From Candidatus Brachybacterium merdavium (GTDB lineage: Bacteria > Actinomycetota > Actinomycetes > Actinomycetales > Dermabacteraceae), in the NCBI GenBank assembly GCA_019118275.1, contig DWZH01000083.1, positions 1 to 60,523 of the forward strand: a DNA stretch of 60,523 nt. Reading direction: 5' to 3'. How positions within the stretch are numbered: the first letter of the stretch is position 1; every line of letters starts with the position of its first letter. Shown piece after piece: positions 27,427 through 60,523 of this stretch. The translations under genes were made by a program, and so were the position numbers. Below the pieces are notes generated by a model. The model ran no database searches and had not been told where the DNA came from. It was given only the letters and a program-made list of their open reading frames with translations.

Positions 27427-28319
27427 GCACGGAGACCCTCGACCGCCCGCGGAGTAACCGCCGCACCCTCACCCCCCTGCTGTTCGCCGCTCCGGCGCTG
27501 GTGATCTACCTCGGATTCCTCGTCTGGCCCGCCCTGCAGGCCCTGTGGATCAGCCTCACCGACTGGGACGGGCTCTCCGATGACAATAGCTTCGTGGGCC
27601 TGGACAACTACCTGGCGATGCTCGACGACAACGTGGTCGGCATCGCAGCCGTCAACAACATCCTGTGGTCCGTGGTGACGATCGTCCTGCCCATGGCGCT
27701 GGGCTTGCTGCTGGCCGTGGTGCTGAACCGCAAGAGTCGGACCTCGCCGGTGCTGAGGACGATCTTCTACGCCCCTGCGGTCCTACCCCTGGTGGCCGTC
27801 GCCTCGATCTGGGCCTGGCTCTACGACCCGACCGACGGTGCGATCAACACGGTCCTCGGCGCGGTCGGCCTGGATTTCCTCGAACAGAGCTGGCTCGGGC
27901 AGGACTCCACCGCGATCTGGGCCGTCATGATCGCTGCGGTGTGGGTGCGGACGGGCTTCCCGATGCTGCTGTACCTGGCAGCACTGCAGTCCATCCCAGA
28001 TGAGCAGTACGAGGCCGCCTCGATGGATGGTGCGAACCGGTGGCAGCAGTTCACTCGCATCACATTCCCGAGCCTCAAGGACACCCACTACATCGTCCTG
28101 GCACTCTCGCTCATCGAGTCCTTCAAGGTGTTCGACCTCGTCTACGCCATGACCTACGGCGGGCCCGGCTATTCGACGCAGGTGATGGGCACCTGGATGT
28201 ACGCCAACGTCTTCCAGTACTTCAATGCCGGATACGGCACCGCGATAGCGGTCGTCATCACCATCGTGGCCATCGCCGCCGGCGTCCCGTACGTTCGCTC
28301 GCAGGTGAGGAACTCATGA
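27423..28319 (+). CDS. ABC sugar transporter permease 1 (MalF/UgpA type)
   Basis: The 298-residue membrane protein has six predicted helices beginning LLFAAPALVIYLGFLVWPAL near residue 20. Its cytoplasmic EAA loop is YEAASMDGANRWQQFTRITF near 200, which contacts the ATPase. It starts at GTG 27423, overlapping the stop codon of the binding-protein gene (GTGA), rather than at the upstream TTG at 27408. It forms the membrane channel with the next gene product. Confidence 0.92.
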   Translation: MSTETLDRPRSNRRTLTPLLFAAPALVIYLGFLVWPALQALWISLTDWDGLSDDNSFVGLDNYLAMLDDNVVGIAAVNNILWSVVTIVLPMALGLLLAVVLNRKSRTSPVLRTIFYAPAVLPLVAVASIWAWLYDPTDGAINTVLGAVGLDFLEQSWLGQDSTAIWAVMIAAVWVRTGFPMLLYLAALQSIPDEQYEAASMDGANRWQQFTRITFPSLKDTHYIVLALSLIESFKVFDLVYAMTYGGPGYSTQVMGTWMYANVFQYFNAGYGTAIAVVITIVAIAAGVPYVRSQVRNS

Positions 28320-30234: not shown

Positions 30235-30304
30235 GGGATGCTCCTCGGATCGACGGGCGGGCGGTGACCGGCGCTGGGTGGCTGTGGGAGGCCGGCCGTG
30301 GGCC

Positions 30305-31651: not shown

Positions 31652-31860
31652 GGTCGGGTCCTTCCGTGAGGGCGAGGGGCTGGTGCTGACTCTACGACGG
31701 CCGACGGGGGCCGCGGCGGTGCCGGTACGCTCGTGCGCACCGGCACCGCCGGCTCCGATCCCGGCCGCTCGTCGTGGATCGCAAGCGCCCGGAGTATCGG
31801 CGTAGGCCGGAGGCGCCCGGAGTGCTCGGGCTGGTCAAAGTGGCCTGCCGTCGGCGGCGA

Positions 31861-33258: not shown

Positions 33259-33483
33259 GGGTGTCTCCAGTGAGATAGGTGGGCGCCGCCTAGACCGGCT
33301 GAGCGGCCCGGCAGTGGGCGGAGAGTCGGTGCGTGCGCCCGCGGGTGGGGTGCTCGGCGGGGCCTCCATCGGTGGCGGCCCCGCCGGCGGAGGGTCTCCA
33401 GCGGCGGAGATCCATGCTGAATGGTGGGCCGGGTCCGGCCGCGGTGGACCTCCGAAGCGGAACCGGGCCCGGTCAGAGGGTGG

Positions 33484-34458
33484 TCAGGCCTGGTCGCGCG
33501 GGGTGGCCCGGGGCGCGGGGCCGAGCTCGGCCAGCAGCTGGGTCATCTTCGCGTAGGCCTTGTTGCGGTAGGCGATCAACTCGGCGGAGGTCTCCTGATC
33601 GTAGTCGCCCAGCAGGCCCTGACCGTTCTTGACGCCCTTGTGGCCGGCCGTCACCTGGTCCTTCAGGATCTGCGGGGTCGCCAGGCGCTCACCGTAGGCC
33701 TCCTCGAAGGTCACGAAGCAGTTCGCGTACACGTCCAGGCCGGCCTGGTCGGCGATCGCGAAGGGCCCGAAGAAGCCCAGGCGGAAGCCGAAGGTGGTGC
33801 GCACGATGGTGTCGACGTCCTCGGCGGTGGCCACGCCCTCCTCGACGATGGAGGTGGCCTCCTTCAGCAGGGCGTACTGGAGGCGGTTGAGGACCATGCC
33901 GGGGGTGTCGGCGACCTGCGCGCCCTCGTTGCCGGACTTGGCCAGCAGCTCCTTGACCGCATCGATGGATTCCTGGGTGGTGGCCTCCCCGGCGACCAGC
34001 TCGACGCCGGGGATGAACGGCGCGGGATTGGAGAAGTGGACGGTGAGGAACCTTTCGGGGTTCTTCACCGCGCTGACCAGTTCCTTCACCGGGATGGTGG
34101 AGGTGTTGGTGCCGATGATCGCGTCAGGGCGAGCGTGTTCGGAGATCGTGCCGAGCACCTCGCGCTTGACGTCGACGCGCTCGAAGACGGCCTCCTCGAT
34201 GAAGTCGACGTCCGCGACTGCGTCCTCGATGCTCTTGCCGGCGGAGATGTTCTTGGCGACCAGCTCGGCGCTGCCGGGGGCGAACAGGCCCTGCTCCTCG
34301 AAGTCGCGGGCTTCCTGCTGGAGGCGCTCGAGGGACTTGTCGGCGACGGCGACGTCGACATCGGCGATGGTCACGTCGAAACCGGCGATGGCGAGGACCT
34401 GCGCGATCCCTCCGCCCATGTAGCCGGCGCCGACGATGGTCACGGTGGAGATGGACAT
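33484..34458 (-). CDS. 3-hydroxyacyl-CoA dehydrogenase-like NAD-dependent dehydrogenase
   Basis: The 324-residue protein has the NAD motif VTIVGAGYMGGGIAQVLAIAG (residues 6-26), the catalytic histidine in LTVHFSNPAPFIPGVELVAG near 138-157 and NRLQYALLKEATSIVEEG near 194. These fit the 3-hydroxybutyryl-CoA dehydrogenase fold, which also includes L-gulonate and carnitine dehydrogenases. No CoA-ligase, thiolase or acyl-CoA gene lies nearby, so a free hydroxy-acid substrate is more likely here. It heads the operon that continues with the GntP permease, the acid-sugar kinase and the beta-hydroxyacid dehydrogenase. Its promoter holds a palindrome between -35 and -10 (34561-34589). AAGGAG precedes ATG 34458. 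Confidence 0.85.
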   Translation of the reverse strand: MSISTVTIVGAGYMGGGIAQVLAIAGFDVTIADVDVAVADKSLERLQQEARDFEEQGLFAPGSAELVAKNISAGKSIEDAVADVDFIEEAVFERVDVKREVLGTISEHARPDAIIGTNTSTIPVKELVSAVKNPERFLTVHFSNPAPFIPGVELVAGEATTQESIDAVKELLAKSGNEGAQVADTPGMVLNRLQYALLKEATSIVEEGVATAEDVDTIVRTTFGFRLGFFGPFAIADQAGLDVYANCFVTFEEAYGERLATPQILKDQVTAGHKGVKNGQGLLGDYDQETSAELIAYRNKAYAKMTQLLAELGPAPRATPRDQA

Positions 34459-34560
34459 CAGAGGGACTCCTTCGTCAGTGCGGGGCGCCGCCTCACGAGC
34501 CAGCGCCTATGCCCCGCGCATGCGATCCGAGCCGTGACGTCGGGGCACGTGGACCCCACA

Positions 34561-34589
34561 AGCATACAGATCCTATTGGATCTTGGGAA
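34561..34589 (-). promoter_or_regulatory. Promoter of the 34458-29350 operon with embedded GntR-type operator
   Basis: Read on the minus strand, TTCCCA (34584-34589) and TATGCT (34561-34566) are -35 and -10 candidates with 17-bp spacing. The palindrome AGATCCAATAGGATCT occupies 34568-34583, nearly the whole spacer. A bound protein would exclude RNA polymerase. The palindrome matches those at 38770-38781 and 58005-58018. Confidence 0.7.
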
Positions 34590-34607
34590 CCCTCCTGTTC
34601 GCTGAGG

Positions 34608-36143
34608 TCAGTGCCCTTCATCGGCTCCTGTCTGCACCAGGTCATCACCGATCCCGAGACCCTGACGCGAACGCCCGCGCACGAGGTTGACGACAGCGGG
34701 GACGAGGAGGAGCAGGAACGCCACGATGAGGATGCCGACCGCGGTCGGGCTCGCGAGGACCACCTTCATGAGATCGCCGCCCCCGAGCGCCGAGGACTGC
34801 ACCAGCGCCTTCTCGAACAGGGGGCCGATCACCAGGCCCAGCACCAGCGGGGCGATCGGGAAGTTGATCCGCTTCATGAGGAAGCCGACGACTCCGAACA
34901 CGACGACCACCCAAAGACTGAACGTGTTGTTCGCGACGGCGAACGCGCCGATCAGCGCCGTGAAGATGATGAGCGGATACAGATATGAGTACGGCAGGCG
35001 CAAGAGCTGTGCGAAAACGGGTGCAAGGGGCAGATTCAGCACGAGCAGCAGCAGGTGCCCGATGAGGAACGACACCAGCAGCCCCCAGACGAGCCTCGGC
35101 TCGTCATCGAACAGCAGCGGGCCCGGCGTGATGCCGTAGAGCAGGAACGCACCGAGCAGCACGGCAGTCGTCGCCCCACCCGGGACGCCGAGGACCAGGG
35201 TCGGGATGAATGCGCCGTTCGCTGCAGCGCTGGTGGCTGCGTCCGGTGCTGCGACACCCTCGATGGCTCCCTTCCCCATGGACGCGCGGTGCTTCGAGAA
35301 GCGCTTCTCGGTGCCGTAAGCCAGGAACGAGGCCAGGGTCGACCCCGCGCCCGGCAGGATTCCCAGACCGAAGCCGATCCCCGTCCCGCGGGCCGTGGGC
35401 ATGACGGCTCTCTTGATGTCGTCCTTCGTCAGCAGGAGGTCGCGGAAACGGGCCCGGATCGGCTTCGGCTGCCCCTGTCCCAACTGGTTCAGCACCTCTC
35501 CCAGGGCGAACAAGCCGATCATCACCTCGACGAAGGGGACCCCAGAGAACAGATCCACGCTCCCGAAGGTGTACCTCGCGACCCCGGTGCCCATGTCGAT
35601 GCCGACCGTTCCGAGAAGCACGCCGATGGCGCACATCGCCATCCCGAGCAGGACATTCCCGGAGGAGAACATCGAGATCGTCGCGAAGCCGAGGAGCATG
35701 ATCGCCATGATCTCGACCGGGCCGAACCCGACGGCGATGTCCGCGAAGAACTGTGCGAGCGTGAACAGCAGCAGCACGCTGACGATGGATGCGGTGAACG
35801 CCGAGATGGCGGAGATCGCCAGTGCCTGTCCAGCACGCCCGTTCCGCGCCATCTGGTATCCGTCGAGCGTCGTCACCACGGAGGATGCTTCACCAGGCGT
35901 CGCGATGAGGATCGCGGTGATCGTGGCCCCGTACTGGGAACCGTGATAGATGCCCGCCAGCATGATCAGCGCGGTGAGCGGGTCCAGCGTGAGCGTCAGG
36001 GGAATGAGGATCGCGACGCCGGTCGCTGAACCGAGACCAGGGAGGATCCCGATCACGGTTCCCGCCAGCACCCCGATGAAGCACCACAGGAGGTTCTCGA
36101 GGGACAGCGCGGCCTCGAGCCCCATCACCAGGTTGTCGATCAT
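34608..36143 (-). CDS. tctA: TTT transporter large membrane subunit TctA, system 1
   Basis: The 511-residue protein has about 12 helices and the TctA signatures: GILPGLGSATGVAILIPLT near 33-51, YHGSQYGATITAILIATPGEASSVVTTLDGYQM near 70-102, and LGILPGAGSTLASFLAYGTEK near 260-280. It forms the channel of a sodium- or proton-coupled importer of carboxylates. Start ATG 36143 has AAGGAGG at suitable spacing and overlaps the TctB stop codon (ATGA). It is the last gene of the pdxA2-tctC-tctB-tctA operon, which suggests that the carried acid is the substrate of the kinase/PdxA2 route. Confidence 0.93.
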   Translation of the reverse strand: MIDNLVMGLEAALSLENLLWCFIGVLAGTVIGILPGLGSATGVAILIPLTLTLDPLTALIMLAGIYHGSQYGATITAILIATPGEASSVVTTLDGYQMARNGRAGQALAISAISAFTASIVSVLLLFTLAQFFADIAVGFGPVEIMAIMLLGFATISMFSSGNVLLGMAMCAIGVLLGTVGIDMGTGVARYTFGSVDLFSGVPFVEVMIGLFALGEVLNQLGQGQPKPIRARFRDLLLTKDDIKRAVMPTARGTGIGFGLGILPGAGSTLASFLAYGTEKRFSKHRASMGKGAIEGVAAPDAATSAAANGAFIPTLVLGVPGGATTAVLLGAFLLYGITPGPLLFDDEPRLVWGLLVSFLIGHLLLLVLNLPLAPVFAQLLRLPYSYLYPLIIFTALIGAFAVANNTFSLWVVVVFGVVGFLMKRINFPIAPLVLGLVIGPLFEKALVQSSALGGGDLMKVVLASPTAVGILIVAFLLLLVPAVVNLVRGRSRQGLGIGDDLVQTGADEGH

Positions 36144-36661
36144 GACAGACCTCCTTCGAACACGCCCATCGGGACCGGGACTCGCAGCACCGCCACGAAC
36201 AGTCCCCACGCCACCAGTGCCGCGCCGACCGTCAGGATGAGGGACGGCACGAGGGGTTTGCGTTCGACGCCGATGGTCAGTGCGGCCACGAGCGCGACCA
36301 GCGGGGGAATCAGCCCCACGACAGGCACCAGCAGGACGGCCAGGATGATGAGACCGAACACGACCACGAGCTTCCGCGTGCTGGTCGACTGCTCGCCGGC
36401 CTCATCGTCCACTCCCGAATCGCCGCGGAGAACCGAGCCGACCCGGATCTCCTGGAGCATCAGTGCGAGGCCCAGGACGACGATGATCGCGGCCACTGCA
36501 CGCGGCAGGAATCCCGGCCCCACCTGGTTGCCATAACGAAAGAATTCGTACTGGAACGAGAGGGCGAAGCCCACCGCCCCGAAGACGGAGATGACTCCAT
36601 ACGACACGAGGACACTGCGACGCGCCTGTCTGACGTCGCTGTCCGACTCATTGATGGTCAT
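36140..36661 (-). CDS. tctB: TTT transporter small membrane subunit TctB, system 1
   Basis: The 173-residue protein has four predicted helices, beginning VLVSYGVISVFGAVGFALSF near residue 17, a GPGFLPR motif near 49 typical of TctB, and a short hydrophilic loop (DSGVDDEAGEQST) between helices 2 and 3. It overlaps both neighbours by ATGA. The longer frame upstream of 36661 is a shadow inside tctC. Confidence 0.9.
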   Translation of the reverse strand: MTINESDSDVRQARRSVLVSYGVISVFGAVGFALSFQYEFFRYGNQVGPGFLPRAVAAIIVVLGLALMLQEIRVGSVLRGDSGVDDEAGEQSTSTRKLVVVFGLIILAVLLVPVVGLIPPLVALVAALTIGVERKPLVPSLILTVGAALVAWGLFVAVLRVPVPMGVFEGGLS

Positions 36662-37632
36662 TGGAAGTACTCCCGGATCTCCGCGTCGTGCTCGTCGAGA
36701 TAGGCGGCGAATTCGTCGCCGTAGAGCTGCTTCTCTATGAGCAGGTCGTCCTCGATGTACTCGTGGTAGACATCGGTCTCCGTGGCTTTCTGGAACTCTT
36801 GGATCCAGAACTCCTGTGCGGCCTCTGAGATGTTCGGCGGCGCCAGCACGCCTCGCCACAGCACGACAGTCCCGTCGATGCCCTGCTCCTCAGCGGTTTC
36901 CACATTGCCCAGGACGTCGTCATCGAACCGCTCCTCGCTGAAGGTGCAGAGAGCCTTCAGGTCACCGCTTTCGACGTAGGGCTTGGCTGAGGCAGCACTG
37001 GCCGGGGCCGCCTCGATCTGGTCGCCGAGAAGAGCCGTCATCACCTCGCCGGTCGAGCCGTAGGGCACCTTGTTCGCCTGCATGCCTGCCTGCTCGAGAT
37101 GATGGATCGCCATGCCGTCGGCGCCGTACGTCCCACTGTTGCCGATCGCCAGGTCAGTGGTGCTCGCCAGGTCAGCGCAGGTGTTCAGGTCCGAATCCGC
37201 AGGGGCCACGATCATGCGGGAGTCCTCTCCGAACAGAGCGATCGGCGTGAAGTCCTCGTAAGTCCACGGGACTTCGACACCTTCCTGGAGGGGCAGCGTG
37301 TTGATCGCGCTCTCCGCCTTCACCAGGTTGCCGGGTTCTCCGTCGAGACCGTAGAAGTAGGACCAGCCGACGGCTCCCCCACCGCCTTCGCGGTTCTCGA
37401 CCACGGTGTTGTACCCCTCGGCGTTCTCATTGATCGCTTCGGACATGACGCGCATGGCCCTGTCGCTCCCTCCACCAGGAGCCATGGCGACGACCATCTT
37501 GACGGTGCCCGAAGGGTGGTATTCGCCGTTCTCTTCGATGTCTTCCCCTTGTCCCTGGCCGCCTTGGGTGCAGCCGGCGAGAAGCAGGGCGCCCGTCGCC
37601 ATCGCGGCGATGCATCGTGCGCGTGACCTCAT
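36658..37632 (-). CDS. tctC: TTT substrate-binding lipoprotein TctC, system 1
   Basis: The 324-residue product has a lipoprotein signal with lipobox LLAGC near residue 19-20 and the TctC ligand-binding motif VVAMAPGGGSDRAMRVM near 47-63, whose glycine and aspartate side bind the substrate carboxylate. Other marks are AIGNSGTYGADGMAIHHLEQ near 150. It captures the external acid for TctA/TctB. ATG 37632 has AAAGGAA upstream, 82 bases after the pdxA2 stop. Confidence 0.92.
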   Translation of the reverse strand: MRSRARCIAAMATGALLLAGCTQGGQGQGEDIEENGEYHPSGTVKMVVAMAPGGGSDRAMRVMSEAINENAEGYNTVVENREGGGGAVGWSYFYGLDGEPGNLVKAESAINTLPLQEGVEVPWTYEDFTPIALFGEDSRMIVAPADSDLNTCADLASTTDLAIGNSGTYGADGMAIHHLEQAGMQANKVPYGSTGEVMTALLGDQIEAAPASAASAKPYVESGDLKALCTFSEERFDDDVLGNVETAEEQGIDGTVVLWRGVLAPPNISEAAQEFWIQEFQKATETDVYHEYIEDDLLIEKQLYGDEFAAYLDEHDAEIREYFQ

Positions 37633-37714
37633 TGTCGTTCCTTTCAGGTGGCGGAGTTTCGGGGCCGATCGGCGCGCTATTGCGACGGTCGGCCCCGCAG
37701 GGTCCCGCCCGATG

Positions 37715-38713
37715 TCATGCGCGGGTGCGCTCCGCTGTCTGCGTTCCCAGGCCGACCGCGATATCCAATGCACGCTGGCTCGGGCCGAGGTGGGCCTTGT
37801 TCATTCCAACGATCTCGTAGGCCGTCCCGTGCGCCGGGGTGGCGATCGGGACCGGCAGCCCGCCCTGCACGGTCACGCCTTGGTCGAAGCCCATCAGCTT
37901 GAGAGCGATCTGACCCTGGTCGTGATACATCGTGACCACGCCGTCGAACTCTCCGTCACGCGCCTTGATGAACAGGGTGTCGCTCGGAAAAGGACCTGTG
38001 ACCTCGATGCCGTCGACGTCGCGGGCGAGCTCGACGCCGGGAGCGATGTGGTCGATCTCCTCCCGGCCGAACTGACCGTTCTCACCGGCATGGGGGTTCA
38101 GGGCTGCGACGGCGATCCGGGGTGTCTCGACGCCCGTGCCAAGCACTACGGAGTGGAGCAGGCGGATCGCGTGCCGAACCCGGTCGGCACTGATGTGCTG
38201 AGCGACCTCGGAGATCGGGATGTGCGAGGTGACCCGTGAGGTGGTCAGACCCGGGATGAAATTCAGCTCGCTGGTGAAGCCATCGAACTCCAGCTCCTTG
38301 GCGAACCAGCGCAGCTCGTCCTCCTCATGCATTCCCGCGAGGTGGAGTGAGGTCTTGTTCAGGGGCAGGAACATGATCGAATCCGCGTCACCGTCGCGGG
38401 ACATGGCCAGAGCCTTCTCGAGGTCTTTCATGACTCTCGCTCCGGCATCGACCGACGTCTCGCGAATGGGGACCTCGATGTCCTGGAGCGGTGAGCCGAC
38501 CAGGTGGACGGCCCCGGTCTGCGGTTCGTCCGCGACCGGGATGCTCACTCCCGCCGCATCACAGGCACGGTCGAACTCGTCGTGCGAGACGAGTGCGGAG
38601 ATCCGTGCCTTCTCGAGATTGCTGGACTCTGCGAGGAGTCGAACAGCGAGCTCGGGTCCGATCCCGGAGAAGTCGCCGAAGGTCAGTGCGATACGTGGTG
38701 CGGCTGTGGGCAT
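37715..38713 (-). CDS. PdxA2-type 4-phospho-tetronate dehydrogenase (PdxA family)
   Basis: The 332-residue protein is of the PdxA family, with ALTFGDFSGIGPELAVRLL at the start, the metal-site region TSHIPISEVAQHI near 180, AALNPHAGENGQFGREE near 225, and YHDQGQIALKLMGFDQGVTV near 265. Classical PdxA makes pyridoxal precursor from 4-phosphohydroxy-threonine. No other B6 gene is here, and the operon continues into a TTT importer near an acid-sugar kinase, so PdxA2 is the better call. PdxA2 oxidises and decarboxylates D-threonate- or D-erythronate-4-phosphate to DHAP. Two ATGs are adjacent; 38713 has AGAGG at 6 bases, 38716 only at 3. Operator candidate at 38770-38781. Confidence 0.85.
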   Translation of the reverse strand: MPTAAPRIALTFGDFSGIGPELAVRLLAESSNLEKARISALVSHDEFDRACDAAGVSIPVADEPQTGAVHLVGSPLQDIEVPIRETSVDAGARVMKDLEKALAMSRDGDADSIMFLPLNKTSLHLAGMHEEDELRWFAKELEFDGFTSELNFIPGLTTSRVTSHIPISEVAQHISADRVRHAIRLLHSVVLGTGVETPRIAVAALNPHAGENGQFGREEIDHIAPGVELARDVDGIEVTGPFPSDTLFIKARDGEFDGVVTMYHDQGQIALKLMGFDQGVTVQGGLPVPIATPAHGTAYEIVGMNKAHLGPSQRALDIAVGLGTQTAERTRA

Positions 38714-39164
38714 CATCGTCCTCTTCCGTGGTCGGCCGTGGGCGGTGAGTCCTCGGAACTACGGCCAATATCAAATAGGATCGAGGACAACCCTACTAGC
38801 CCGGAGCGTCGAGTCAAGGGGACTAATCAGGCATCTTCGGGCAACATTTGGCGGTCTGGCCAGCGACATCCTGGAGGACAGGAGCGATCGCCGATTCCCG
38901 CGGCTGCAAGGGCTCGGGCTACTTGCTGGCTGCCCTGGCTATGTTTCGTCGATGCTCGGTGACGGGGAACGCCGAGACGATGGTGACGACCCCGTTCTTC
39001 CCATCGAGCTGCCGACGGCGGCAGCAACAGCAGCCGGTGCAGCCGAGCTGCTGGCTCCTCCCCCGCGGCGAGCTCCATCGGGGTGCGCACCGGTGACTAC
39101 GATGACCAGCAGCACCTCGGGGCCGATGTCGCCCGCGTACGTGCGGAAAGGGTCGTGAGTCGAC
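38714..39164. promoter_or_regulatory. Intergenic region between pdxA2 and the K+ channel gene
   Basis: This 451-bp gap separates the divergent genes. On the minus strand ATCCTATTTGAT (38770-38781) lies 55 bases before pdxA2 and matches the operator at 34570-34581 in 11 of 12 positions. The part from about 38850 to 39130 is GC-rich with several short open frames, none with a convincing start or family resemblance. A GGAAAGGG at 39145-39152 is the probable ribosome binding site of the channel gene. Confidence 0.6.
38770..38781 (-). promoter_or_regulatory. GntR-type operator candidate upstream of pdxA2-tctCBA
   Basis: ATCCTATTTGAT on the minus strand differs from the ATCCTATTGGAT site at 34570-34581 at one position. 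It lies in an AT-rich patch 57 bases before the start codon. It links the pdxA2 operon to the acid-sugar kinase operon. Confidence 0.6.
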
Positions 39165-51251: not shown

Positions 51252-52121
51252 TCAGCCCACGCGCATGCCGCCGTTGAGGCTGTAGGTGGCTCCGGTGGTG
51301 AAGCCGCCGTAGGGGCCCACCAGCCAGGACACCAGCGCCGCGAGCTCCTCGACGGTGCCCAGGCGGCCCACCGGGGTGCGGGCGACGAACTGCTCGCGCC
51401 GCTCCCCCACCAGCGGGCCGCCCATGATGTCGGTATCGATGTTGGCCGGGGCGATCGCGGCTGTGGTCACGCCAGTGCCTGCCGTCTCCTTCGCCAGGCC
51501 CCGCAGCAGGCCCTCCACTCCGGCCTTGGAGGCCGCGTAGGCGGAGGTGGAGAAGTTCCCGCCGCCGTCCTGCGCGGCGGTCGAGCCGACCGCGACGATC
51601 CGCCCCAGGCCCTGCTCGAGCATCCCGGGCAGCACCCGCTGGGCGAGGTGGAACAACCCGGTGGTGTTGATGGTCAGGGTGCGTTGGAAGGAGGCGCTGG
51701 TCATCTCCAGGAACGGGGTGGGGTCGGCGATGCCGGCGCAGTTGACCAGGGCCGCGACCGGCGGGGCCGCCGACTCCACGTCAGTGATCGCGGTGTCGAC
51801 GCTGGCCGGATCGGCGATATCAGCCTGCGCGGTCACCACGAGGCTCGCCCCGGCTGCCCGGGCCTGCTCGGCAGCCTCCTCGAGGCCGTCCGTGTCACGG
51901 TCCAGCAGGGCCAGGGGACGACCCTCGCCCGCCAGGACCCTCGCCACCCCGCGGCCGATGCCACGCGTGGACGCAACACCGGTGACCACGGTGGTCAGCT
52001 CAGTGATGCGGGCCTCGTCGACGACGGAACGCTCACCGGCCACGGCACGCTCCTCAGCCCTGGAATGCTGACCGGCCGCGGAATGCTCGCCGCCCACGTC
52101 GTGTGGATGCTCGTGGGTCAC
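51252..52121 (-). CDS. SDR-family oxidoreductase with repeat-containing N-terminal extension
   Basis: The 289-residue product has the SDR core from about residue 40: VVTGVASTRGIGRGVA (TG-x5-GxG), NCAGIADPTPF near 127, the catalytic serine in VAVGSTAAQDG near 176 and YAASK near 192-196, ending in LNGGMRVG. GTG 52121 overlaps the upstream hydroxyacid dehydrogenase stop (GTGA), so the full N-terminus is probably made. That extension, about 35 residues, consists of a His/Glu/Ala-rich hexapeptide repeat encoded by four 18-bp units (52026-52097). A later in-frame start cannot be excluded. The DTDIMGG substrate-loop motif is shared with the SDR at 54622-55425. Confidence 0.85.
   Translation of the reverse strand: MTHEHPHDVGGEHSAAGQHSRAEERAVAGERSVVDEARITELTTVVTGVASTRGIGRGVARVLAGEGRPLALLDRDTDGLEEAAEQARAAGASLVVTAQADIADPASVDTAITDVESAAPPVAALVNCAGIADPTPFLEMTSASFQRTLTINTTGLFHLAQRVLPGMLEQGLGRIVAVGSTAAQDGGGNFSTSAYAASKAGVEGLLRGLAKETAGTGVTTAAIAPANIDTDIMGGPLVGERREQFVARTPVGRLGTVEELAALVSWLVGPYGGFTTGATYSLNGGMRVG
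52026..52097. repeat. Four 18-bp tandem repeats inside the 5' end of the SDR gene
   Basis: Units at 52026, 52044, 52062 and 52080 read GGAACGCTCACCGGCCAC and variants with GGMAYGCT starts. The 18-bp length keeps the SDR frame and encodes imperfect hexapeptides such as GEHSAA, GQHSRA, EERAVA, GERSVV. Confidence 0.75.
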
Positions 52122-53170
52122 TTCGCACCCCCGGGGCCGGCCTGCGGGGAGTTCACGACGTTGCGCGGCTGCTGTCCGGTGGCCATGGCGATGACCTCGC
52201 CGCGCATCTCGGCGGCGGTGCTGTCGGTGAAGTCCTGGGTCCAGCACAGCGAGTGCGGGGCGAGCACCACGTTCTCCAGCCCGATCAGGGGGCTGTCGCC
52301 GGGCAGCGGCTCGACCTCGAACACGTCCAGGCCGGCTCCGGCGATGGTGCCCTCCTGCAGCGCTGTGATCAGGGCCTGCTCGTCGACGACGCTGCCGCGG
52401 GCGATGTTGATCAGCGCGGCCGAGTCCTTCATCAGGCCCAGTTCGCGGGCGCCGATCAGATGGCGGGTCTCGGGGGTGGCCGAGACGGTCAGGATCACGT
52501 AGTCGCTGCGCTCGAGCACCTCGTCCAGCTCGAGCTGGGTGATGCCCACCTCGGCGCAGAAGTCGGGCCGCGGGGAGCGGTTCCAGGCGACGACCTCGAG
52601 GTTCAGGGCGCGCAGCTGGCGCACGGTCTCCTGTCCGATGCCGCCCAGTCCGATCACGCCGACGGTCGCGGTGGCCAGGCCGGGCCCGCGGTAGAGGGCC
52701 TTGCGGTCCCACTGTGCCGTGCGGACCAGATGGTCCTTGGGCAGCAGGTTGTGGGCCAGGGCGAACAGGAAGGTCAGTGCGGTGTGGGCCATCGGTACTC
52801 GCAGCCCGGTGGGGGCGTTGGTGACGGTGATGCCCCGGGCGTCGCAGGCGGCGAGGTCGACCTGGTCGTAGCCGGCACCGAAGCGGGCCACGTGCTTCAG
52901 GGTGGTCACGCCCTGCAGCTGCTCCTCGCCGAGCGCGAGGGATCCCAGCAGCACGAGGGCGTCGTAGCCCTCGAGCTCCTCGCCGCGCAGCGGTGAGCCT
53001 GCCTCGGAGACGATCGACCACTCGAGGCCGTGCTCGGCGAACTGGTCCAGGCCGATGTCGCCGTAGATGGTCGAGCCGTCGGCGTCGGCGTAGTCGCCGG
53101 TGACGGCGACCTTCCAGGGGCGTGGGGCGGCCCCCTGGGCGGAGGTGGACGCTGCGCTGGGCTGGTTCAT
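52118..53170 (-). CDS. D-isomer-specific 2-hydroxyacid dehydrogenase
   Basis: The 350-residue NAD(P)-dependent enzyme has VGVIGLGGIGQETVRQLRAL near 168-187 (GxGxxG), NIARGSVVDEQAL with the substrate arginine near 255, a GLDVFEVEPLP glutamate near 280 and the catalytic histidine in LAPHSLCW near 302. FGAGYDQVDL near 95 is the second-domain hallmark. It reversibly reduces 2-keto acids such as hydroxypyruvate, glyoxylate or 2-keto-aldonates. It overlaps the FMN oxidase gene (ATGA) and the downstream SDR (GTGA), so the three proteins are made in a fixed ratio. Confidence 0.92.
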   Translation of the reverse strand: MNQPSAASTSAQGAAPRPWKVAVTGDYADADGSTIYGDIGLDQFAEHGLEWSIVSEAGSPLRGEELEGYDALVLLGSLALGEEQLQGVTTLKHVARFGAGYDQVDLAACDARGITVTNAPTGLRVPMAHTALTFLFALAHNLLPKDHLVRTAQWDRKALYRGPGLATATVGVIGLGGIGQETVRQLRALNLEVVAWNRSPRPDFCAEVGITQLELDEVLERSDYVILTVSATPETRHLIGARELGLMKDSAALINIARGSVVDEQALITALQEGTIAGAGLDVFEVEPLPGDSPLIGLENVVLAPHSLCWTQDFTDSTAAEMRGEVIAMATGQQPRNVVNSPQAGPGGAK

Positions 53171-54450
53171 GGGGTGACCTCCTCGGTGACGGCGGTGGGT
53201 TCGGGTTCGCGGTGGATGCCCTGGCCGTGCCAGGCCTCGGGGTACTCCACGAAGCTGCGGTCCAGGGCGTTGATGCGCGTGGCGCCGAGCTGGCCCATGG
53301 CCAGGGAGAGTTCACCGTCGAGGATGTCGAGCACGCGCAGCACGCCCTTCTCCCCTGCGGCGGCGTTGCCATAGCCCCAGGCGCGCCCGATGGAGACCAG
53401 GTCCGCGCCGACGGCCAGCGCCTTGACGATGTCGTCGCCGGTGCGCACGCCGGAGTCGAAGATGACGGTCATCCGGTCCCCGACCGCATCGGCGATCATC
53501 GGCAGCGCGCGGATGGAGCTGGGCGAGGAGTCGAGCTGGCGGCCACCGTGGTTGGAGACGTAGATGCCGTCGGCCCCGGCCTTGTGCGCGCGCTGGGCGT
53601 CCTCGGGGGTCAGGATGCCCTTGATGTAGAGGGGACCGTCCCACTGGCGGCGGACGTCCTCGATGCTCTCCCAGGTCAGGGTGAGGTTCGCGAGGTACTT
53701 CGCGACGAACTCCTGGTGGGAGACGGCGTTGTTGCCCTGGACCTCGTCCTTGAGATTGCGGAACCCGATCGCCGGGGGCCGCATGATCGCCCGCGTCCAG
53801 TTCAGGTGCCGGATCGCCTCGAGCGCGTTCTGCGGGGTGATGCGGGGCGGGATCGACATGCCGTTGCGGTGGTCGCGGTAGCGCTTGCCGTTCAGCGGGA
53901 CGTCGACGGTCACCACCAGCGCCTCGGAGCCGATGGCCTTGGCGCGCTTGATGAGGTTCGCGACGATCCGTTCGCTCTTGTACATGTACAGCTGGTACCA
54001 CAGCGGCCCGGTGGCCTGGTCGGCCAGCTCCTCCATCGCCCAGTTGGAGGCGGTGGAGATGGTGAAGGGGATGTTGGCCTTGCCGGCGGCACGGACAGCG
54101 CCCAGCTCGCCCTCGCCGCCGATCATGCGCTGCAGGCCCAGCGGCCCCATCACGTACGGGCGTTCCAGGGTCTGGCCGTCGATCGTGGTGGAGACGTCGA
54201 CGTTCGAGATGTCGGTCAGCCAGCGCGGCCGGAACCGCACCTCCCGCAGGTCCGAGACGTTCTCCTCGCGAGTGAGCTCATGATTGGAGGCGCCGTCGAT
54301 GATGTCGAAGGCCATGGTGGGCAGCCGCCGCTTGGCGAGGCGGCGGACGTCCTCGATGGAGGGGGCGGAGTCCAACGGGTCGAGCCGGAATCCGCCTGCG
54401 GTGAGCATCTTTGCGAATTCGACGGCGCTGGACAGTGGGTTCTCGGCCAT
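53167..54450 (-). CDS. FMN-dependent alpha-hydroxy-acid dehydrogenase/oxidase (L-lactate dehydrogenase LldD-like)
   Basis: The 427-residue protein folds as an FMN barrel. It has FDIIDGASNHELT near 48-60, PYVMGPLGLQRMIGGEGE near 103-120 (FMN contacts), the catalytic His and Arg in YVSNHGGRQLDSSPSS near 303-318, and the phosphate-binding DSGVRTGDDIVKAL...SIGRAWGYG near 335-365. It oxidises L-lactate, glycolate or another (S)-2-hydroxy acid to a keto acid at the membrane or in the cytosol. L-lactate would be a product of the 2,4-diketo route of rhamnonate, which makes LldD plausible here. A different acid is possible given the neighbouring dehydrogenases. Coupled to the next gene by ATGA. Confidence 0.92.
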   Translation of the reverse strand: MAENPLSSAVEFAKMLTAGGFRLDPLDSAPSIEDVRRLAKRRLPTMAFDIIDGASNHELTREENVSDLREVRFRPRWLTDISNVDVSTTIDGQTLERPYVMGPLGLQRMIGGEGELGAVRAAGKANIPFTISTASNWAMEELADQATGPLWYQLYMYKSERIVANLIKRAKAIGSEALVVTVDVPLNGKRYRDHRNGMSIPPRITPQNALEAIRHLNWTRAIMRPPAIGFRNLKDEVQGNNAVSHQEFVAKYLANLTLTWESIEDVRRQWDGPLYIKGILTPEDAQRAHKAGADGIYVSNHGGRQLDSSPSSIRALPMIADAVGDRMTVIFDSGVRTGDDIVKALAVGADLVSIGRAWGYGNAAAGEKGVLRVLDILDGELSLAMGQLGATRINALDRSFVEYPEAWHGQGIHREPEPTAVTEEVTP

Positions 54451-54584
54451 GTCTGCTCCTTGGGTCGGGGCCGGGCAGCGGTGCCCGACGGGGGTGCTGG
54501 GTTGCCTGGGCGGTCCGAGCCGGTGGGCACGGGCTTCGCCGGTGGGCGCGGGCGGTCGGAGGTGCCCGGTGCGGACAGCTGTGA

Positions 54585-54610
54585 TCCCGGGGCGCGCGGG
54601 CGCCCCGGGA
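54585..54610 (-). terminator. Hairpin between SDR and FMN oxidase genes
   Basis: TCCCGGGGCGC (54585-54595) pairs with GCGCCCCGGGA (54600-54610), a perfect 11-bp stem with a 4-base loop, 12 bases past the SDR stop codon. It may act as an attenuator within the operon, since no promoter is evident in the remaining 171-bp gap, which also has a CCGGTGGGC direct repeat. Confidence 0.55.
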
Positions 54611-54621
54611 CCCGGGCCGGA

Positions 54622-55425
54622 TCAGTGCATGTGCTTGCCGCCGTCGACGTTGATCGAGGTGCCGTTGACGAAGGAGGAGTCCTCGCTGATCAGGAAGCTG
54701 ATCAGGCCGGCGACCTCCTCGGGCTGACCCACGCGCTGCAGCGGGATGTTCGCCGACATCCCGGCCTTGCGCTCATCGGTCAGGGTGCCGCCCATGATGT
54801 CGGTGTCGATCGGGCCGGGCAGGATCACGTTGGCGGTGATGCCATAGGTGCCGAGCTCGCGGGCGGCGCCGCGGGTCAGGCCCTGCACGGCGGCCTTGGC
54901 GGCGGCATAGCCGGTCTTGGAGAAGGTGCCGCCGCCGTCCAGCGCCGTGATCGAGGCGGTGTTGACGATGCGTCCGCCCACCCCGCCGTCGATCATGCGC
55001 TTGGCCGCGGCCTGGATCATCAGCAGGGTGCCCTTGCCGTTGACGTCCATGACGCGATCCCAGATCTCCGAGGTGATCTCGAAGATCGAGTGGGGGCTGG
55101 GGATGCCGGCGAGGTTGACCAGTGCCACCAGCTGCGGCATCTCGGCGTCCACGCGCTCGAAGGCAGCGTCCACGGAGTCCTGGTCGCTGATGTCGACGCC
55201 GACGCCGATCACCTTCAGCCCGGACTCGGCGGGGAGCTCGGCGTTCAGCTCGGCGGCGAACTCCTCGACGGCCGCACCGTCGATGTCGGCCGCGGCGACG
55301 TTCCAGCCTTCGGAGACGAGCTTGCGCACGACGCGCCGGCCGATGCCGCGCGGTGCGCCGGCCCCGGTCACCAGGGCGGTGCGCTGGGCGGGGAAGGGCT
55401 GGATAGTGGTGGTCTCAAGGGTCAT
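54622..55425 (-). CDS. SDR-family oxidoreductase
   Basis: The 267-residue protein has ALVTGAGAPRGIGRRVV near 17-33 (TG-x5-GxG), NLAGIPSPHS near 105, the serine in NTASITALDGGG near 153 and the YAAAK motif near 170. It ends SINVDGGKHMH. The loop PIDTDIMGGTLTDERK is shared with the SDR at 51252-52121. By context it oxidises a polyhydroxy-acid intermediate. Proteins of this group include the 2-keto-3-deoxy-L-rhamnonate 4-dehydrogenase (LRA5) type, but I cannot confirm that. It follows the GntP gene by 52 bases. Confidence 0.88.
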   Translation of the reverse strand: MTLETTTIQPFPAQRTALVTGAGAPRGIGRRVVRKLVSEGWNVAAADIDGAAVEEFAAELNAELPAESGLKVIGVGVDISDQDSVDAAFERVDAEMPQLVALVNLAGIPSPHSIFEITSEIWDRVMDVNGKGTLLMIQAAAKRMIDGGVGGRIVNTASITALDGGGTFSKTGYAAAKAAVQGLTRGAARELGTYGITANVILPGPIDTDIMGGTLTDERKAGMSANIPLQRVGQPEEVAGLISFLISEDSSFVNGTSINVDGGKHMH

Positions 55426-55477
55426 GAGTGGTTCTCCATTCGTGAGATGTGCAGGGACGGCAGCGGCACGGGAGGTG

Positions 55478-56989
55478 TCAGCTGATGATGAGGTCGAGGA
55501 CGAACAGCAGGGGGATCGAGGCTGCCCACATGACGGTGGTCATGCCGCTGTGCGCCTTCAGGGCGGCTGTGCCGTCGAGCCCCATGAAGCGGGTGACGAC
55601 CCAGAAGTAGGAGTCGTTGAAGTAGCTGCACACCATGGCGCCGGCCACGCAGGCCATCACGGCGACCAGGGGGGCCAGTCCGATGGTGGCCATCACGGGA
55701 GCGGTGACCGAGGCCGCGGTGATCATCGAGACGGTCCCGGAGCCCTGGGCGATGCGCACGATCGAGGCGATCAGGAAGGGCAGCAGGAAGGTGGGCAGGG
55801 GCAGCCCGCCGATCGCCTCGGCGAGGGAATCCCCGATCCCGGTGTCGCGCAGCACCTGGCCCAGGCCTCCGCCGGCTCCGGTGATCAGCAGGATCAGCCC
55901 GGCATCGGCCGCGGCGTCACCGAGCCACTTGTGACTCTTCTTGCGCGGGGTCCAGCGCGGCAGCAGCAGGTAGACCGCCATGACCAGGCCGATGAGCAGC
56001 GCGATCACGGGGTCGCCGATGAAGACGAAGAAACCGGCCCAGGCCGAGGGCTCGTAGTCGGCGGGGAGCGCAGTGCCCTGGGCGTCCATGTCGATCGCGG
56101 TGATGACGGTGTTGAGCACGATCAGCAGGATCGGCACGACCAGGGGGAGCAGACCGACGAGGGCTCCGATCCGGTGCGGCTTGGCGCCCCTGGGCGCTTC
56201 TCCCAGCTCGGAACTTCCGCTGGAGACCGCGTCCAGGCCGGCGGCCGCGTCGGCGTCGTCCGATCCGGCGCTGACGCTGCCTGATCCGGTGCCGCCGCCC
56301 GACCCGGCGGCGACCGCCACCCGGTCCGTGCGCACGTCGCCGTAGACGGCCTGCTGGACCTCGTCATTGATCAGCGGTTCGACCCTGGGACCGATCCACT
56401 TCGCGTACAGGGTGACCACCGGGATCATGAACACCGTGAAGATCAGGCCGGTGATGATCACCGATCCCACGCTGACCCCGAGGATGCCGGCCACACCGAG
56501 GGGGCCGGGGGTGGGCGGGACGAAGTGGTGGGTGATCACCATGCCGCCGGCCAGTGCGATGCCGAGGGTGGCGTAGCCGTACTTCTTGACCCTGGCGATG
56601 GCCCGTGCCAGCGGGTTCATGATCACGTAGCCCGAGTCGCAGAAGACCGGGATCGAGATCAGGGCCCCGATGCTGGTCATCGCCCAGGGTTCACGGTTCT
56701 TCCCGAACAGACGCAGGAACGCCACCGCGATGGCCTGGGCGGCACCGGAGACTTCGAGGATCTTCCCGATGGCTACGCCCAGACCGATCACGATGCCGAT
56801 CGAGGCCAGCGTGTCGCCGAAGCCGGTCTTGATCGATTCGACGATGCCAGGCAGCGATTGTCCGGCGATCAGGCCGACCACCACCGATGCGATCAGCAGG
56901 CCGGCGAAGGCATCGAGTCGTGTCCGCAGCACGATCACGACGATCAGCGCGATACCGACCACGAGGGCCAGCAGCAGGATGGGATCCAT
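55478..56989 (-). CDS. GntP-family sugar-acid:H+ symporter 2
   Basis: The 503-residue carrier has GntP landmarks: VVGLIAGQSLPGIVESIKTGFGDTL near 37-61, IGLGVAIGKILEVSGAAQAIA near 68-88, PVFCDSGYVIMNPLA near 115, HHFVPPTPGPLGVAGILGVSVG near 155 and AQGSGTVSMITAASVTAPVM near 415. A central hydrophilic loop of about 65 residues rich in Ser, Gly and Ala (about 210-275) separates the two halves. It imports the acid processed by this operon. Family relative of the gene at 31861-33258. ATG 56989 follows GGAG. Confidence 0.93.
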   Translation of the reverse strand: MDPILLLALVVGIALIVVIVLRTRLDAFAGLLIASVVVGLIAGQSLPGIVESIKTGFGDTLASIGIVIGLGVAIGKILEVSGAAQAIAVAFLRLFGKNREPWAMTSIGALISIPVFCDSGYVIMNPLARAIARVKKYGYATLGIALAGGMVITHHFVPPTPGPLGVAGILGVSVGSVIITGLIFTVFMIPVVTLYAKWIGPRVEPLINDEVQQAVYGDVRTDRVAVAAGSGGGTGSGSVSAGSDDADAAAGLDAVSSGSSELGEAPRGAKPHRIGALVGLLPLVVPILLIVLNTVITAIDMDAQGTALPADYEPSAWAGFFVFIGDPVIALLIGLVMAVYLLLPRWTPRKKSHKWLGDAAADAGLILLITGAGGGLGQVLRDTGIGDSLAEAIGGLPLPTFLLPFLIASIVRIAQGSGTVSMITAASVTAPVMATIGLAPLVAVMACVAGAMVCSYFNDSYFWVVTRFMGLDGTAALKAHSGMTTVMWAASIPLLFVLDLIIS

Positions 56990-57037
56990 CAGAACTCCTT
57001 CGTTCTCCGTGGGATCAGGGCATGGTCGTCAGGGCGA

Positions 57038-57970
57038 TCAGGCGTTCTTCTCAGCCAAGGCCGAGGCCAGCACCTGGCGGATGTACTGGACGTTCTCGGC
57101 GATGACGCCGAGCGAATCCGAGCCGTAGTGCTCGCAGCAGAACGGACCGGAGTAGCCCAGGTCGATGGCGCGGCGGATCACCTTGCGGTAGTTGATGTAG
57201 CCGTACTTCAGGGGCATGGGGTCCGAGGAGTACGCTCCGGTGGCCGGATCGAAGTCGCGGGTGTAGTTCTTGATGTGCCAGAAGTTCGAGTGCGGCAGGA
57301 CCTTCTCGAACATGTCCTCCCAGGGCTCGATCTCGCGGTGCAGGCGCACCAGGTTGCCGATGTCCGGGTTCAGGCCGACGGCCGGGTGGTCGACGTCGGC
57401 GTGGAAGGCGACGGCCTCGTCGGCGGTGCCGACGTAGGTGTCCTCGTACATCTCCAGGCTGACCTCGATGCCCTGCTTCTGGGCGGCATCGCCGAGCTCG
57501 CGGATCCGCTCGATGGCGAGGTCGCGCAGCGCGGGGTCGTCGACGTGGCCGTCGGCGAGCCAGAACCAGATGGCCCGGTTCTGGGCCTCGGTGGTGGCCT
57601 GCATGAAGCCGGTGTTGACCACGCTGACGCCGAAGCTGGGGGCGATCTCGATGAAGCGGTGGGCATCGCGCAGGTTCTGCTCGCCGTGGTCGACGTCCAC
57701 GACGGAGTTGCGGGTCATGGAGATGGACGCCAGGGACATGCCCTCGCCGTCGAGGACGCTGCGGAATTCCTCGAGGCGCTCGTCGCTCAGCTTGGCCAGC
57801 GGCAGCCAGGCGTCGGTGGGGTCGATCTGGTCGACGCCGAGCTCCTTGACCTGGCGCAGCTGGGAGGCCCAGACGGTGGAGGGCGCCTCCAGGGTGGGGG
57901 TGCCGTCCGGAGTGGTGTTGCCGAACGAGAGCATGTTGGCGCCGATCGGCCAGTTCTCTGCGGTGAACAT
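57038..57970 (-). CDS. Sugar phosphate isomerase/epimerase-type TIM barrel (hydroxypyruvate isomerase-like)
   Basis: The 310-residue barrel protein has candidate metal ligands Asp/Asp in VDQIDPTDAW near 46-54, Glu in VSLEMYEDT near 172, Asp-Ile-Gly-Asn in GLNPDIGNLVRLH near 197-209, His in NFWHIKNYTRD near 226 and Glu-His-Tyr in CCEHYGSD near 275. It is first in the operon and would interconvert a keto-acid or keto-sugar after uptake, like OtnI or Hyi. The precise substrate is unknown. The best copy of the ATCCTATAGGAT palindrome (58005-58018) lies 35 bases upstream of ATG 57970. Confidence 0.8.
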   Translation of the reverse strand: MFTAENWPIGANMLSFGNTTPDGTPTLEAPSTVWASQLRQVKELGVDQIDPTDAWLPLAKLSDERLEEFRSVLDGEGMSLASISMTRNSVVDVDHGEQNLRDAHRFIEIAPSFGVSVVNTGFMQATTEAQNRAIWFWLADGHVDDPALRDLAIERIRELGDAAQKQGIEVSLEMYEDTYVGTADEAVAFHADVDHPAVGLNPDIGNLVRLHREIEPWEDMFEKVLPHSNFWHIKNYTRDFDPATGAYSSDPMPLKYGYINYRKVIRRAIDLGYSGPFCCEHYGSDSLGVIAENVQYIRQVLASALAEKNA

Positions 57971-58277: not shown

Positions 58278-59084
58278 TCAGGCGGGATCGCCCTCGTCGT
58301 CCGAGCTGCGCAGGATGCGCGCGGTCGCGGTGTCCATGTGCCGGATCGTCGCCGCTGAGACGGCTTCCACGTCGCGGTCGGCGACAGCACGGGCGATCTC
58401 CTCATGCTCACGGATCGCGTCCTCGATGTCGGCGCGGCGGTCCACCGCGTTCTCGAACCACACCCGCAGCAGAGTGCGGGTGGTGGACAGGATCTCCGAG
58501 AGCAGCTTGTTGCCACCCATCAGGGCCAGTTCGCGGTGGAAGGCGATATCGGCCTCGACGTAACGCTCCGGATCATCGATCGCCTCGCGCTGGCGCTGGA
58601 CCAGCTCGAGCAGATGGTCGGCCTGCTCGTCCGTGCGCTGGGCGGCGGCCAGCTCCGCGGCGCTGCGCTCGAGGGCGGAGCGCACGACGGTCAGCTCGGA
58701 GGTGCGGTCCTGATCCAGCAGCAGCGACCACGACAGCGTGCTGGGCAGCAGCTCGGAGGTGCCCGAGCGCAGATACGTGCCGGACCCCGCCCGGGTCTCG
58801 ACGATGCCGAGCACCTCGAGCGCCGAGATCGCCTCCCGTACTGCACTGCGTCCCACCCCCAGGCTCTCGGCCAGGGCCCGCTCCCCCGGGAGTCGGTCAC
58901 CGGGGCGCATGCTCTCGCCCAGCAGCAGATCCAGGAGGCGGAAGGTCACGGCACTGCTGGGTGAACGACTGATGCTGACGGGGCCGCCGGGCGTGCCGGG
59001 CTCGACGTGATCGGAGCCGAGCGGGAAGACCGCGCCCCCACGACTTTCCGACGGCTGCGACTCGGGTGTGGTTGCAGTGTTCAC
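58278..59084 (-). CDS. GntR-family regulator, FadR/FCD subfamily
   Basis: The 268-residue protein has a winged HTH near 45-105 with GDRLPGERALAESLGVGRSAVREAISALEVLG, followed by an FCD all-helical effector domain. Probable metal or ligand histidines are in DIAFHRELALMG near 188, REHEEIARAV near 232 and IRHMDTAT near 252. FCD regulators typically sense hydroxy- or sugar acids. It sits directly upstream of the hydroxy-acid operon and is the best candidate reader of the ATCCTATWGGAT palindromes in this window. Start GTG 59084 has GGAG only 2 bases away, so the exact N-terminus is uncertain. It is divergent from the gene at 59337. Confidence 0.92.
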   Translation of the reverse strand: MNTATTPESQPSESRGGAVFPLGSDHVEPGTPGGPVSISRSPSSAVTFRLLDLLLGESMRPGDRLPGERALAESLGVGRSAVREAISALEVLGIVETRAGSGTYLRSGTSELLPSTLSWSLLLDQDRTSELTVVRSALERSAAELAAAQRTDEQADHLLELVQRQREAIDDPERYVEADIAFHRELALMGGNKLLSEILSTTRTLLRVWFENAVDRRADIEDAIREHEEIARAVADRDVEAVSAATIRHMDTATARILRSSDDEGDPA

Positions 59085-59133: not shown

Positions 59134-59143
59134 CAACCGGTTG
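59134..59143. promoter_or_regulatory. LacI operator upstream of the 59337 operon
   Basis: CAACCGGTTG in the context GGCCAACCGGTTGACC, in the 252-bp gap between the GntR gene and the TIM-barrel gene at 59337. It repeats the core found twice around the LacI gene at 22807-23901, some 35 kb away. The rest of the gap shows no clear feature. Confidence 0.7.
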
Positions 59144-59336
59144 ACCTGTTCTGGGTTTCGTGCCTATGGTGCATCAGACGGACCGACCACGGACCCGATC
59201 GGGTACGCCCCTGGAGCCCACGGGCCACCCCCGCACCCGGCAGCACGGGACGAACCCCGCCGCCGCGAGGACGCAGCCCAGCCTCGGCCCGCATCTGACC
59301 AGACCACCGCGATGCACACGACGGAGTGAAAAGCGC

Positions 59337-60218
59337 ATGAAGATCGGCATCGGAACCTATTCCCTGTTCTGGGAGCTGCCCGAGCGCAATCCCGAGTCCC
59401 TGGGCATCTCCGGGATGATCGATCGCGCTTCCCAGCTGGGGTGCGAGGTCTTCCAGATCTGTGACGACCCGAGGATCGAGGGGCTCGACCCGGCCCAGCT
59501 GCAGGAGCTGCGCGAGCGCGCCGAGATCCTCGGCCTCGAGCTCGAGCTCGGCACTCGCACCATCGGTCGCGAGCACCTGGACCGCTACCTCGACATCGCC
59601 GAGGCGCTCGGCGCCCGCACGCTGCGCTCGATGATCCAGAGCCAGGAGATCGCCACTGGCGCCCCGGCTGCCCTGAGCGAGCTGCGCCGGACCCTCCCCC
59701 GCCTGGAGAGCACGGGCATCACCCTCGCCCTGGAGACCTACGAGCAGGTGCCCACGCCAGTGCTGCTCGAGGTGATCACCGCTCTCGACTCACCCTTCGT
59801 CGGCGTCTGCCTGGACCCGGCCAACTGCGTCTCGGCCCTCGAGCACCCGAAGCAGGTCGTCGAGTCCTGCGCGAGCCACACCGTCAACCTGCACGTGAAG
59901 GACTTCGCCTTCGCCCGCCAGGAGGGCTGGGTCGGCTTCACCTACTCCGGCGCCCCGCTCGGCCAGGGCCTGCTCGACCTCGACCACGAGCTCAGCGCGG
60001 TCTACGGCGCCGGAACGCCCGGCACCGGCAGGCGCTCCGCCCCGACCAGCACCACCGCCCGGCACGACCGCATCTGCCCCAGCGCCATCGTGGAGCACTG
60101 GCTGCCCTGGCAGGGAGACCTCGAGACCACCGTCACGACCGAACGAGCGTGGACCGATCGCACCCTGGCCGCCCTGCGGTCCTGGCGCACCGAGCACCTG
60201 CCGTCGACCCCTGGCTGA
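59337..60218 (+). CDS. Sugar isomerase-type TIM barrel, candidate 3-oxo-isoapionate decarboxylase (OiaC-like)
   Basis: The 293-residue protein begins MKIGIGTYSLFWELPERNPE. Candidate metal ligands are Asp/Asp in VFQICDDPRIEG near 40-51, Glu in LALETYEQV near 128, Asp in VCLDPANCVSAL near 160, His-Val-Lys in VNLHVKDFAF near 184 and Glu in IVEHWLPWQ near 247. It belongs to the xylose-isomerase-like barrels. OiaC of D-apionate catabolism is such a barrel, and the LacI operator upstream plus the Rossmann gene downstream suggest this role. The resemblance is from memory and weak as proof. Start ATG 59337 follows GGAG; the frame is open from 59160 without an RBS. Confidence 0.6.
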   Translation: MKIGIGTYSLFWELPERNPESLGISGMIDRASQLGCEVFQICDDPRIEGLDPAQLQELRERAEILGLELELGTRTIGREHLDRYLDIAEALGARTLRSMIQSQEIATGAPAALSELRRTLPRLESTGITLALETYEQVPTPVLLEVITALDSPFVGVCLDPANCVSALEHPKQVVESCASHTVNLHVKDFAFARQEGWVGFTYSGAPLGQGLLDLDHELSAVYGAGTPGTGRRSAPTSTTARHDRICPSAIVEHWLPWQGDLETTVTTERAWTDRTLAALRSWRTEHLPSTPG

Positions 60219-60432
60219 CATCTCGCGCACCGGCCGCCACCCGGCGGCCCAACCTCCTCGGGCCACCGATCCCTCGGCCCGACCGCGCATCCGCCCGACC
60301 ACCCATCGGCCCGCCGATCCACCATCCAGCGGTCCCTCGACCGCCGCCCCGCGACCCCCGGTTCGCATCCGACCGCGGCCTCGGCCGCACCGCCCCGCGA
60401 CGCCCCGTCGCACCGTCACGAAGGAGTCACCG
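60219..60432. other. Intergenic spacer in the 59337 operon
   Basis: A 214-bp, very C-rich spacer with imperfect CCGAC/CCGCC runs between two plus-strand genes. I see no promoter, hairpin or open frame that I would support, other than the AAGGAG at 60421-60426 before the next gene. Confidence 0.5.
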
Positions 60433-60523
60433 ATGACCAGCAACAAGCAGCTCAACCCCCTGTACGGCAAGACCGTCGAGCTCGACCCCTCGATCAGCGT
60501 CGCCGTGGTCGGCGCCGCCGGGA
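60433..60523 (+). CDS. N-terminus of a Rossmann-fold oxidoreductase, partial (right edge)
   Basis: Only 30 residues are present, ending in ISVAVVGAAG, a beta-strand plus the start of a GxxG dinucleotide-binding loop. AAGGAG lies 6 bases before ATG 60433. The N-terminal 20 residues before the strand are hydrophilic. Given its place behind an OiaC-like gene and a LacI operator, D-apionate oxidoisomerase (ApnO, phosphogluconate-dehydrogenase-like) is one candidate; any NAD-dependent sugar dehydrogenase would fit as well. Confidence 0.6.
   Translation, partial: MTSNKQLNPLYGKTVELDPSISVAVVGAAG

Follow-up and report, generated by a model that had tools for sequence, protein, structure and literature searches.

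The window analysed here is an entire contig (C52) of Candidatus Brachybacterium merdavium, 60,523 nucleotides long and ending at position 60523, from a genome (G000) of 3,655,287 bases in 137 contigs. Two divergent genes and the start of a third lie at its right-hand end. On the minus strand, 58278-59084 encodes a GntR regulator of the FadR subfamily, with a winged helix-turn-helix domain (PF00392, 59.1 bits) and an FCD domain (PF07729, 91.5 bits), both over cut-off. The Pfam scan covered 58278-59003; the frame stays open up to 59084, where a GTG is taken tentatively as the start. The plus-strand gene at 59337-60218 (ATG at 59337) encodes an AP_endonuc_2 TIM-barrel enzyme (PF01261), a candidate OiaC-like protein for which Pfam gives AP_endonuc_2 only, the NCBIfam models give no match, and a PDB search gives a single hit, weak and partial (8z1i, E 9e-7). 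The third gene, also on the plus strand, begins at 60433 and is cut by the contig end at 60523. Its 30 residues by themselves match no family, and in 15/15 relatives they correspond to the beginning of the gene that follows. The full counterpart in locus L036 is a PGDH_C oxidoreductase (PF16896, 177.5 bits) with best PDB match 5t57, an ApnO structure; PGDH_C is the family of ApnO. The suggestion in the initial annotation that the cut gene could be ApnO is thus favoured, as synteny places it with the PGDH_C oxidoreductases. Next after the PGDH_C gene in L036 come genes for a GntP permease, a Dak1-Dak2 kinase, and RpiB-like and TPI-like isomerases. Across the 15 fetched relative loci, homologs above 80 bits are found for PGDH_C (15/15), Dak-type kinase (12/15; none in the stretch examined of L038, L039 and L041), TPI-like (15/15) and RpiB-like (10/15) proteins, and from this synteny the genes past the contig end in the own genome are predicted. 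The region beside the GntR gene (51252-57970) carries two SDRs, a 2-hydroxyacid dehydrogenase, an FMN-dependent dehydrogenase, a GntP permease and a second AP_endonuc_2 gene; this run is partly conserved in relatives, with the permease absent in some, for example L028.

The second locus contains, on the plus strand, an SDR oxidoreductase (20263-21033) and a relative of the lactonase ApnL (21030-22841; NF049900, 181.4 bits, under the model cut-off of 750), followed by a LacI-family regulator on the minus strand (22807-23901). Divergent from the latter, 24056-29221 on the plus strand encodes two nucleoside-hydrolase-family proteins, the first likely beginning at ATG 24056, and an ABC sugar importer (solute-binding protein and two permeases). 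The two nucleoside-hydrolase-family genes (24056-26116) are diverged tandem copies, placed between the LacI gene and the importer. Two other catabolic clusters are found in the window. One, at 551-13614, resembles an inositol-type cluster, with a PfkB kinase, a TPP enzyme, an aldehyde dehydrogenase, two barrel genes, two Gfo/Idh/MocA genes and a sugar transporter. The other, at 29350-38716, is of the tetronate/threonate type, with a threonate-dehydrogenase-like protein, an SBD_N/NBD_C kinase, GntP, 3HCDH, TctA/TctC and PdxA.

In the D-apionate catabolism that Carter et al. are said to have described in 2018, ApnL, ApnO and OiaC take part, and the route reportedly runs from apionate through 3-oxo-isoapionate and L-erythrulose to erythrose phosphate. 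The gene set of the relatives fits this route, and judging from gene content an apionate-like pathway at these loci is plausible. The names ApnL and OiaC given previously stand at the level of family only (181 against 750 bits for ApnL, and a barrel protein that matches no NCBIfam model). A D-apiose cluster with a lactonase and an oxidoisomerase is reported for a marine bacterium in PMC11747546.

The sequence CAACCGGTTG, an even palindrome with central CG, occurs exactly at 20051-20060 (site 1), 24008-24017 (site 2) and 59134-59143 (site 3). The initial annotation had these three positions right, and the number lies far above chance: 100 shuffles of the window gave a mean of 0.04 copies per window, and none reached three. 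The genome-wide scan that it had proposed adds one exact copy to the three of the window, at C124:9360 (L006:9360-9369), where it falls within coding DNA for an ABC permease; this is probably a chance occurrence. Copies with one mismatch are not enriched in the own genome (90 vs 118 for the reversed control), so the signal is carried by the exact core plus its flanks, the best copies with flanks reading TTGGTCAACCGGTTGACCAA. Site 3, within GGCCAACCGGTTGACC, lies in the divergent region between the GntR gene and the barrel gene. Site 1 lies upstream of the SDR/ApnL-like genes, and site 2 in the divergent region between the LacI and nucleoside-hydrolase genes, 9 nt beyond the second of two LacI-type operators.

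Two of the sites overlap promoters, by consensus. The right half of site 3 forms the -35 hexamer TTGACC (59141-59146, plus strand) of the barrel-gene promoter, whose -10 hexamer is TATGGT (59165-59170, plus strand). The same layout is seen in 16/16 barrel-gene promoters, where the right operator arm gives TTGACC, followed by 18 nt and TANNNT. TTGACC occurs 92 times in the 15 relative loci, 17 times with that continuation, and 15 of the 17 are these operators. Site 1 is inside the spacer of a putative promoter TTGAAA-N17-CAAACT (20040-20068, plus strand), and with a loose -10 pattern, L106 excluded, the operator sits in the 17-nt spacer between TTGNNN and the -10 hexamer in 8/9 SDR promoters tested.

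The comparison covered 38 genomes of the genus, the own genome included. The barrel gene is present in the own genome and 15 others, with a further fragment of 24 residues at a contig end in G015, an 81% complete draft. The exact core precedes it in 14/16 other genomes (13/15 full loci, plus G015), and the remaining two have one-base variants (TAACCGGTTG in L032, CAACTGGTTG in L040). The exact site also stands before the ortholog of the 20263 SDR gene in G001, G009, G020, G021 and G023 (80-83% identical), some 43-66 kb away from the copy at the barrel gene. The SDR ortholog is likewise preceded by a site in G024, G028 and G015, and G013 has GAACCGGTTG there. Portions of both loci fall within a single 19-kb stretch in G034, G011 and G013, and G004, G010, G025 and G036 have the barrel-gene site only. 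Most of the sites compared had been selected by AACCGGTT, and those taken from a single genus do not count as independent. A single predicted operator links the two sugar-acid loci, which are 35-39 kb apart in the window; this claim of the initial annotation is borne out by the conserved site pairs in related genomes.

The same annotation had the LacI protein 22807-23901 binding all three sites and controlling both loci. Its gene is adjacent and divergent to site 2, G024 and G028 have LacI together with all three sites, and the palindrome has the central CG of LacI-family operators, described as even palindromes in PMC4052901. However, this reading is improbable. LacI orthologs (64-72%) are found in G000, G013, G024 and G028 only, of the 38 genomes, with the next best match at 38%, and 13/17 genomes keep the site without an ortholog, one of the 13 being the draft G015. 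Outside the genus, G291 has a LacI ortholog (58%) and does not belong to the 42 GntR-matching genomes described below; its LacI locus carries no AACCGGTT in 19 kb, and holds GTTATCGATAAC in the gap between LacI and the nucleoside hydrolase NH1. Moreover, separate LacI-type operators exist as a conserved pair. They read GTGATCGATCAC (23963-23974) and GTGATCGATAAC (23987-23998) in the window, and two GTKAYCGDTMAC sites are present in the LacI/nucleoside-hydrolase gap of each of G000, G024, G028 and G013; the GTKAYCGDTMAC consensus was built from those same sites, and elsewhere it occurs as single copies (9 plus-strand matches in G000). The half-site GTGA-C of these operators resembles the symmetric lac operator. 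The L040 variant AACTGGTT breaks the central CG. As the LacI consensus also fits the shared site, the case against LacI rests on distribution and on the separate operators, and from these the attribution of the shared site to LacI is probably wrong.

Both proteins may act at site 2, since three of the four LacI gaps hold exact CAACCGGTTG (G000, G024 and G028) and the fourth, in G013, has CAACCGGATG with one mismatch. Binding of the shared site by GntR as well as LacI, in competition or in cooperation and at site 2 if not elsewhere, would agree with the location of site 2, which is 9 nt away from the second LacI-type operator and is kept there in G024 and G028. However, the two motifs are clearly different and nothing at sites 1 and 3 requires LacI, so that joint binding appears rather unlikely.

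The GntR regulator follows the site more closely. One of two types flanks it in 17/17 Brachybacterium genomes with the barrel gene (the window, the 15 fetched relative loci and L106), type A being about 58-87% and type B about 44-47% identical to the window protein. With rows read in frame, and the translations of L217, L220, L226, L236 and L238 set aside as out of frame, the helix-turn-helix stretch VGRSA(V/I)RE is common to both types. The five genomes G001, G009, G020, G021 and G023, which have no LacI ortholog, still have the SDR site. Across loci L027-L041 the two FCD-GntR types, about 45% identical and differing in orientation, swap next to the barrel gene, with no change of the operator.

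Among genomes sampled across the order, GntR matches (E 1e-50) occur in 42/396, versus 4/396 for LacI matches (E 1e-85). The best 30 of 43 GntR loci, 6 in the genus and 24 outside, were compared with 1.5 kb flanks. AACCGGTT lies at most about 340 bp from the GntR gene in 27 of these best 30 of 43 (21/24 outside the genus), and 26 match the 18-mer TGGTCAACCGGTTGACCA with 3 mismatches or fewer; the other 3 of the 30 are without the core near the regulator. Markov-resampled controls contain AACCGGTT in 7/300.

An unlinked LacI-family paralog might instead read the site in all these genomes. LacI paralogs are numerous, AACCGGTT suits the family, and a relative of TGGTCAACCGGTTGACCA within 4 mismatches is found at 8/26 LacI-paralog loci, above the 3/300 of the Markov controls. 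However, 0/26 of these loci carry AACCGGTT and 0/26 match TGGTCAACCGGTTGACCA with 3 mismatches or fewer, although LacI-family proteins often regulate their own genes (72%, PMC4052901). In the 15 fetched 19-kb barrel-gene loci, moreover, the L041 ortholog is the sole LacI homolog scoring over 60 bits, which disposes, in these relatives, of the different LacI protein near 60.5 kb against which the initial annotation had weighed its proposal. A paralog as the reader is therefore highly improbable.

Searching the genome collection with the 18-mer gave 84 stretches; of the 80 that were listed, most are without pathway homologs. Eleven distant non-Brachybacterium loci were chosen, partly for gene context, in which the 18-mer neighbours either pathway-like genes or a GntR gene. 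A GntR match (43-63%) is present in 11/11 of these genomes, with AACCGGTT within 1.5 kb in 8/11 and the core missing near the regulator in 3/11; the best LacI match among those listed for them is 40%. One of the 11 also belongs to the 30-locus GntR set.

The operator consensus of the FadR subfamily is given as TKGT-N2/3-ACMA in PMC4494728. Only one half of the shared site, CGGTTGACCA, fits it, except for the first base, and L040 carries the complete TGGTTGACCA. In a set of 60 related sites, 59 of which hold AACCGGTT by selection and 16 of which, at the barrel gene, were picked with GACC too, one perfect CGGTTGACCA half is seen in 43/60 and both in 0/60. The half-site YGGTTGACCR was also tried as a sufficient regulon motif and rejected as unspecific, having 52 matches in G000 and tens in every one of 22 genomes, roughly double the number for the reversed control.

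Several observations run counter to GntR: AACCGGTT is a typical LacI-family core, some LacI-paralog loci have a relative of the 18-mer within 4 mismatches, the FadR-subfamily consensus fits one half of the site, some GntR loci are without the core near the regulator, and site 2 adjoins the LacI gene. However, on the sequence comparisons as a whole it is likely that CAACCGGTTG with its flanks is the operator of the FCD-GntR protein 58278-59084, which would repress three operons, with LacI as a local second regulator. Without a pathway metabolite, possibly apionate or a related acid, GntR would occupy the site, which at 59337 provides the -35 box and at 20263 takes up the spacer of the promoter. 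GntR would thereby silence the SDR/ApnL-like and barrel/PGDH_C operons and, together with LacI, the nucleoside-hydrolase/ABC operon, the LacI protein acting on this import operon through its two GTKAYCGDTMAC sites. As the bound protein would block RNA polymerase, the likely mode is repression that a pathway acid relieves. Proteins of the FadR subfamily are described in PMC4494728 as binding carboxylic acids and similar compounds.

On a broader view, for which we see about an even chance, these loci may represent a widespread and undescribed actinobacterial apionate-like regulon under an FCD-GntR protein with a LacI-look-alike operator, an even palindrome that is extended and centred on CCGG. 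A few strains would have a nested LacI with its own operators in the same import promoter, and hence two-key control. A text search of the literature, judged by title and start of abstract and with subscription papers mostly outside it, returned no report of such a regulator. The result is a testable map of regulator, operator and promoters for an actinobacterial sugar-acid pathway, in which genes 35-69 kb apart appear to join one regulon (the window, G001, G009, G020, G021, G023 and G028). It also cautions that a CG-centred palindrome next to a LacI gene may not be the operator of that LacI.

Compared with known systems, the loci resemble D-apionate catabolism in the lactonase relative, the PGDH_C oxidoreductase and the TIM-barrel enzyme, to which relatives add the Dak-type kinase and the RpiB- and TPI-like isomerases. 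They differ in that the ApnL-like protein is far under its model cut-off and that SDR and nucleoside-hydrolase-family genes are additional; the substrate here is putative, as read from the genes. The 22807-23901 protein with its two central-CG operators is like the local sugar regulators of the LacI family (PMC4052901), whereas the distribution of the CAACCGGTTG site departs from that of the protein. The window GntR is like the FadR-subfamily regulators of oxidised substrates, such as UxuR, ExuR, GlcC, LldR and DgoR (PMC4494728), in its winged helix-turn-helix and FCD domains, in target operons of the acid-catabolism type, in divergent gene placement, and in the GT-N2-AC spacing of the CGGTTGACCA half. 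Unlike the operators of that subfamily, the shared site is a LacI-like even palindrome of 18-20 bp around CCGG, with a more variable second arm.
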